A stretch of DNA of 43,586 nucleotides, from IMG/VR virus record IMGVR_UViG_3300040810_000139, positions 1 to 43,586 of that record; one strand, given 5' to 3'. The translations under genes were made by a program, and so were the position numbers. Of this stretch, positions 11,478 through 11,736 are shown piece by piece. Source of the stretch: a virus. Each line of letters begins with the position of its first letter. Within the stretch, counting starts at the first letter, position 1. Under the pieces are notes generated by a model that did not search any database, was not told the origin of the DNA, and was given only the letters and a program-made list of their open reading frames with translations.

Positions 11478-11736
11478 GAAGTGAAGTAAAAGGCACTTTG
11501 GACGCCGGTTCGACTCCGGCCACCTCCACCAATAAACAGCAGAGGGGGTGTATAGGGTTTCGACAGGGTGATTAGTAACTGAATGGACAACACAGTAGGC
11601 GATGACTGTAAATCAAGCAAATCTATAATTGGCAACGATTATACAATGGAAGACTACGCCTTAGCGGCCTAGTCCCCCGAGGTTCACGGTAGCCTCGTCA
11701 CCCAATACCCAGAGGGGCATTTATTTGCCCCTCGCC
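11478..11736 (+). ncRNA. ssrA: Circularly permuted (two-piece) tmRNA
   Basis: The acceptor half lies first. The T arm is gccgg-ttcgact-ccggc at 11504-11520, followed by the 3' acceptor strand cacctcc (11521-11527), A, and an encoded CCA (11529-11531). A 12-nt spacer follows, then the coding half begins with gggggtg (11544-11550), which pairs fully with cacctcc, including the G3-U pair that marks alanine tRNA-like domains. Next comes the conserved gggtttcgacaggg. CAGGGTG (11564-11570) pairs with CACTTTG (11494-11500) as P2. The tag reads GNDYTMEDYALAA from GGC at 11631 to a TAG stop at 11670-11672, with the resume codon inferred by comparison with E. coli. The outer ends of the transcript are approximate. 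tmRNA rescues stalled ribosomes and tags products for proteolysis. The permuted order is typical of Alphaproteobacteria. Confidence 0.92.
11712..11733 (+). terminator. Strong GC-rich hairpin after tmRNA
   Basis: Stem gaggggca / tgcccctc with a 6-nt loop (tttatt). The downstream run is only weakly U-rich (gcctatttcg), so it could equally be a tmRNA 3' processing or stability element. Confidence 0.5.

Follow-up and report, generated by a model that had tools for sequence, protein, structure and literature searches.

The virus record IMGVR_UViG_3300040810_000139 from IMG/VR, analysed here over its full length of 43,586 nucleotides (43.6 kb; the window), raises the question of whether a phage carries its own working gene for a permuted two-piece transfer-messenger RNA (tmRNA), and if so of which type and to what end. 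A first-pass annotation, made from the letters alone, had placed such a gene, phage-borne and with a tag, at 11478-11736. It is confirmed that positions 11470-11736 hold a permuted two-piece tmRNA gene, with the acceptor half lying 5′ of the coding half, and its signal is far above chance, given full-length covariance model (CM) matches and covariation across 126 phage relatives. The gene, its structure, the covariation, the conserved tag and the conserved locus were all observed directly. On this evidence the phage gene very likely encodes a permuted tmRNA of the beta type that is intact, under selection and active in ordinary trans-translation together with host factors.

The single gene that ARAGORN called in the window is a permuted tmRNA ('tmRNA*'), to which it assigned the tag GNDYTMEDYALAA. 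In keeping with this, a cmscan search of the entire window at Rfam gathering thresholds returned two families and nothing else: tmRNA_permuted (RF04321) at 11470-11672 with 131.4 bits against a cut-off of 47 (E 1.3e-25, model positions 1-213 of 213) and beta_tmRNA (RF01850) at 11395-11736 with 118.2 bits against a cut-off of 84 (E 1.6e-35, model positions 1-331 of 331). The parts of the gene, with one upstream motif, are as follows.

11470 to 11531, plus strand: acceptor (3′) piece, with the 5′ strands of P2a and P2b, the T arm, the 3′ strand of the acceptor stem, the discriminator A and the encoded CCA; its 5′ end is placed provisionally from the full-model match to RF04321.
11532 to 11543, plus strand: intervening sequence ATAAACAGCAGA, 12 nt without an open reading frame (ORF), between the encoded CCA and G1.
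11544 to 11733, plus strand: coding (5′) piece, from GGGGGTG to the terminal hairpin, its presumed 3′ end; the RF01850 match runs to 11736.
11521 to 11550, plus strand: acceptor stem, CACCTCC (11521-11527) with GGGGGTG (11544-11550).
11504 to 11520, plus strand: T arm GCCGG-TTCGACT-CCGGC, stem 11504-11508/11516-11520, 5 of 5 paired.
11470 to 11592, plus strand: P2a, a helix between the pieces, 11470-11475 with 11587-11592.
11494 to 11570, plus strand: P2b, a helix between the pieces, 11494-11499 with 11565-11570.
11593 to 11618, plus strand: 26-base signature CAGTAGGCGAYGACTGTAAATCAAGC, made up of the hairpin after P2, CAGT-AGGCGATG-ACTG, and its 3′ flank TAAATCAAGC.
11631 to 11672, plus strand: tag reading frame, resume codon GGC at 11631 and stop TAG at 11670-11672, encoding GNDYTMEDYALAA (ARAGORN).
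11712 to 11733, plus strand: terminal hairpin GAGGGGC/GCCCCTC at the 3′ end of the coding piece, from the terminal stem of the beta model and the fold; possibly also a terminator.
11072 to 11078, plus strand: ATAAATA, resembling a T4-type late promoter (motif scan), upstream of the gene that precedes the tmRNA.

All seven acceptor-stem pairs form, including G3-U70, the identity pair of alanyl-tRNA synthetase (AlaRS), and ACCA is encoded, ending at 11531. Fold prediction gave 11470-11736 a greater stability than shuffled sequences (z -2.75). The first-pass annotation had described perfect pairing of the acceptor strands of the two halves, with G3-U, and a P2 pairing between them, both of which hold, P2a and P2b each being found with compensatory changes; likewise, the permuted tmRNA model, to which it had expected a hit, matched over its full length. 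The extent it gave was right for the gene but not for the start, which lies some 8 nt earlier where the 5′ strand of P2a begins.

For the covariation set, 126 distinct phage sequences were aligned after the spacer had been taken out; they were admitted with no more than one mismatch in the acceptor and T-stems, such that the pairing percentages of those stems (acceptor stem 99.8% against 77% shuffled; T-stem 99.8% against 72%, with compensatory variation) are partly imposed, and the invariance of acceptor pairs 1-3, where GGG/TCC was imposed, is no evidence. The pairing of P2a and P2b was not imposed by the search. Against shuffled controls, which take no account of kinship among the sequences, P2b was paired in 98.4% of cells (shuffled mean 75%) with 160 double-change cells, and P2a in 86% (shuffled 80%), falling to 65% or less when slid by 1-3 columns. 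Double changes were present in all helices, in P2a for example TA/CG/AT. Because P2a and P2b covary across these phage relatives, the comparison argues for a functional RNA. A survey of the acceptor stems of 96 phage tmRNAs (e.g. L124, L133, L154, L231) yielded 24 distinct stems, with positions 4-7 paired in 97% against 54% in shuffles and showing compensatory changes. Position 3 was G-U in 92 of the 96, where the search had not imposed it, and the four stems lacking G3-U70 look like false pairings.

Both the locus and the tag are conserved among close relatives. A pattern scan of IMG/VR found the permuted arrangement with a short spacer in 116 contigs. The contigs closest to the window by DNA identity (L102, 94.7%; L069, 94%; L038, 91%; L034, 87%; L057, 76%) are collinear with it over many alignment blocks, and in all five the tmRNA stands at the same position relative to the window genes. 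The window and these five share the tag family x-N-x-Y-x-MEDYALAA, with GNDYTMEDYALAA in the window and L069, DNNYEMEDYALAA in L102, L038, L034 and L057 as well as, by sequence, in L238, and DKNNYAMEDYALAA in L322. The last eight residues, MEDYALAA, are invariant in eight phage sequences, beneath which the codons vary synonymously (GAC/GAT, TTA/CTA, GCC/GCA, GCG/GCT) with the stop being either TAG or TAA.

The subtype was settled by model scores. The first-pass annotation had seen an alphaproteobacterial layout and suggested comparison with SAR11 tags, a reading under which the gene would be a SAR11-type tmRNA on a pelagiphage. The permuted order is indeed the same, and alpha-type tmRNAs have been described on the marine phages Melnitz and Mosig (PMC9004378). 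On the window gene, however, the alpha model (RF01849) scored 37.2 bits, under its cut-off of 50, and the cyano model (RF01851) 56.1 bits, under its cut-off of 70, whereas the beta model passed; nor was a glutamine riboswitch found by the cmscan search of the window. An alpha or SAR11 origin was therefore dropped; as far as the Rfam subtype goes it is refuted, overall it is very improbable, and the comparison with SAR11 loses its support. Judged by the only subtype model that passes, the window tmRNA is of the betaproteobacterial structural type. ALAA is the usual tag end recognised by ClpXP, and it is normal for the beta type, since the tag of the Cupriavidus plasmid copy described below ends in FALAA. 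The C-terminus YALAA thus suggests no different degradation signal, contrary to what had been proposed for this tag.

The phage gene could also be a recently captured host ssrA, either a neutral passenger or a decaying copy. The uptake of ssrA by phages on imprecise excision has been discussed (PMC9004378), and the permuted tmRNA exceeded the cut-off in only 8 of 35 records of the wider terminase clade, nearly all of them picked by terminase and most of them fragments. The window gene, however, shows no decay, with helices, CCA and tag all intact, and covariation with a conserved tag across a wide set of phages points to long maintenance with compensatory changes, which opposes recent capture. 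Furthermore, at least 120 viral contigs contain the 26-base signature, which is missing from all 84,980 bacterial and archaeal species genomes in a search for exact matches that relatives with other stem bases would escape. The bacterial and archaeal genome collection yielded no match to a stringent search pattern for the nearest bacterial tmRNA either, and similar DNA was not found in E. coli genomes. The bacterial references were two betaproteobacterial plasmid copies only, with no chromosomal set, namely L319 (NZ_CP011518, plasmid pPO70-1, 1407-1761; RF01850 131.6 bits, tag GKNDAFYYEAA) and L343 (Cupriavidus, NZ_CP017753, 939-1256; RF01850 231.7 bits, tag ANDKRFALAA); the PLSDB gene table contains no RNA genes. 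In a tree of 60 tmRNAs built on a short alignment, the window gene clusters with phage contigs, including L326 from a 524-kb record, while the Cupriavidus and Pandoraea plasmid copies fall outside its group (60% and 58% identity). The beta model also passes in the isolated phages Xanthomonas XacN1, Pseudomonas SM1, Stenotrophomonas Marzo and DLP_6, Acinetobacter BUCT628 and Alcaligenes QDWS595, and Stenotrophomonas phage BUCTxx99 passes RF04321; with the exception of Marzo, the tmRNA is unannotated at these loci. The gammaproteobacterial hosts among these carry a one-piece tmRNA, so simple acquisition from the current host does not account for the phage gene. Recent capture is accordingly quite unlikely, and by these sequence comparisons the window gene is part of a widespread phage tmRNA lineage related to the betaproteobacterial type.

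From this we infer expression, processing, charging, tagging and benefit as follows. A single precursor would be transcribed, acceptor half first, for which the ATAAATA at 11072 could drive a transcript of the preceding gene and the tmRNA. Host tRNA-processing enzymes would then excise the 12-nt spacer, with RNase P cutting at G1 and the acceptor piece being trimmed at its 3′ side as far as the encoded CCA, leaving two pieces that the acceptor stem, P2a and P2b keep joined. Host AlaRS would charge the tmRNA by way of G3-U70, and host SmpB would bring it to ribosomes stalled on mRNAs that are broken or lack a stop codon. There the nascent chain would be extended by Ala and then GNDYTMEDYALAA, whose ALAA end would direct the product to host ClpXP-type proteases (trans-translation is reviewed in PMC8012679). 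It is plausible that the phage supplies rescue capacity in infection, and the benefit is probably ribosome recycling, ribosomes being kept cycling while mRNA is cleaved and the host chromosome may stop supplying ssrA. Host SmpB is presumably used because no SmpB was found among 50 tmRNA-bearing viral records, in a search whose control detected SmpB in 10 of 14 known genomes.

Several points weigh against ordinary trans-translation with host factors. Immediately upstream of the window tmRNA, no strong promoter can be made out; most of the viral records being fragments, a phage SmpB could sit elsewhere in the genome, and SmpB has been reported in some huge phages (PMC7162821); and compatibility with the SmpB and AlaRS of the host is assumed. 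A different role would be that of a decoy or regulator, titrating host SmpB or re-tagging chosen proteins, for example for the destruction of host proteins or the timing of lysis. In its favour, the tmRNA of phage DS6A, which consists of the tRNA-like domain only, is reported to be similar to a strong tmRNA inhibitor (PMC4131195, PMC11915505) and selective tagging of host proteins has been proposed (PMC9004378), and the tags do vary among phages, some of them being long. The window gene, however, retains a full frame, a standard ALAA end and a stop codon, whereas a decoy would need no conserved tag; conservation of the tag frame thus makes the decoy role the less likely one, and we regard it as unlikely. 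Ordinary trans-translation by an intact beta-type tmRNA is thus the reading preferred here.

The source is a large aquatic phage. The window encodes a T4-type terminase large subunit, a UvsX-like recombinase, a single-stranded DNA-binding protein, a thymidylate synthase and a virion structural protein. The terminase is 76-99% identical to its best 80 IMG/VR relatives and about 48% identical to those of the jumbo phages PA5oct and Phosso; the earlier label 'T4-like' is fair for the gene set, but the terminase stands nearest to those of jumbo phages such as PA5oct. ATAAATA at 11743, 22911 and 31870 ends a few nt before the ATG of three genes, which suggests leaderless late mRNAs, although the link between these and the tmRNA that had been put forward found no direct support. 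Elsewhere in the window, a protein encoded at 39397-40779 on the minus strand has a signal-like N-terminus followed by a long Thr/Asn repeat, matches only a PHROG of unknown function and adjoins a 999-aa protein (36416-39415).

The viral relatives show a number of unusual features. An ORF lies within the intervening spacer of L328 and L226, and also of L121, L237, L163, L129, L137, L175 and L228, starting about 10-14 nt past the CCA and in most cases stopping with TGA right before G1. The spacer ORF of L328 (record G096, 1641-2009, minus strand) encodes about 122 aa with a sub-threshold match only to Pfam HTH_45, that of L226 (tmRNA 5414-5878, plus strand) encodes 86 aa matching Pfam CxxCxxCC (27.3 against a cut-off of 23), and the others encode 21-50 aa, of which the short ones may be chance. 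Among the papers that a literature search listed, no title or abstract dealt with an ORF in the intervening sequence of a permuted tmRNA. Several of the 96 surveyed genes have ACCT, ACCG, ACCC or AAAA at the position of the discriminator and CCA. On several differing T-stems the T-loop TTCGANT is replaced by GGCAGNR (GGCAGTG, GGCAGTA, GGCAGAG, GGCAGCA), at L194, L214, L183, L175, L134, L133, L182, L189, L222, L230, L124 and L191, and the five such loci tested all pass RF04321 (98-120 bits). Long tags of about 29 aa form one conserved family (e.g. AKTSTGEVTVSGKNVKFSARSAQRQSLAV) ending in LAV or FAV instead of LAA (L123, L132, L139, L141, L155, L160, L166, L193, L204, L208 and others), while a second long-tag family ends in ANESRFALAA. 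The idea that relatives without an ARAGORN call are tag-less tmRNAs was rejected, those that were read being mostly genes with longer tags or contigs cut at the end. Directly upstream of the tmRNA in L006, L112, L087, L025 and L059, TTGACA followed after about 17 nt by a TATAAT-like hexamer (read by eye) suggests early transcription of the tmRNA in these contigs.

Two-piece tmRNAs of phages are already known, since 53 were counted when 18,146 phage genomes were surveyed, 50 of them from marine or aquatic phages (PMC9004378). The window gene is a further one, of the beta subtype, and with its lineage call corrected it makes a clean addition to those published. Novelty may lie rather in the relatives, with their 24 acceptor stems, GGCAGNR T-loops, long LAV tags and spacer ORFs. 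We hold it an even question whether the window gene belongs with these to a virus-resident tmRNA lineage untied from bacterial lineages, in which the acceptor stem is free to change with G3-U70 kept and some spacers serve as slots for protein genes; if so, processing into two pieces would make it possible for an RNA gene of a phage to house one that encodes a protein. That acceptor stems diversify with the alanine identity pair retained raises the question of the driving force. If phages keep their own rescue RNA, ribosome rescue belongs to the phage programme, for which Stenotrophomonas, Pseudomonas, Xanthomonas and Acinetobacter phages with a two-piece tmRNA, in hosts with a one-piece tmRNA, offer a testable system.

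The ssrA genes of Bacillus phage G and the mycobacteriophages Bxz1 and Wildcat are standard one-piece genes. Described earlier (PMC4131195), they resemble the window gene in being phage-encoded tmRNA genes and differ from it in that the latter is permuted. Melnitz and Mosig are, like the source of the window, aquatic phages that have T4-type genes and a permuted tmRNA (PMC9004378), but the Melnitz tmRNA was placed with the alphaproteobacterial lineage and linked to a glutamine riboswitch (PMC9004378), whereas the window gene fits the beta model and lies in a window lacking a detectable riboswitch of that class. The betaproteobacterial two-piece tmRNA of Cupriavidus (NZ_CP017753) has in common with it the permuted order, the tRNA-like domain, the ALAA tag end and terminal hairpins covered by the same RF01850 model, while the window gene differs in sequence, with 60% identity over the region compared, in its longer tag with a GGC resume codon, in being phage-borne and in its very short spacer. 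Among isolated phages the likeness is to Stenotrophomonas phages Marzo (Menderavirus; RF01850 94.6 bits), Moby and IME-SM1 and their relatives, which carry a beta-type permuted tmRNA with a 70-nt match to the window at 80% identity, but in which the tag is another (VAANDDSYTVRIAA), the gene sits in a tRNA cluster and the sequences form a separate branch of the tree.
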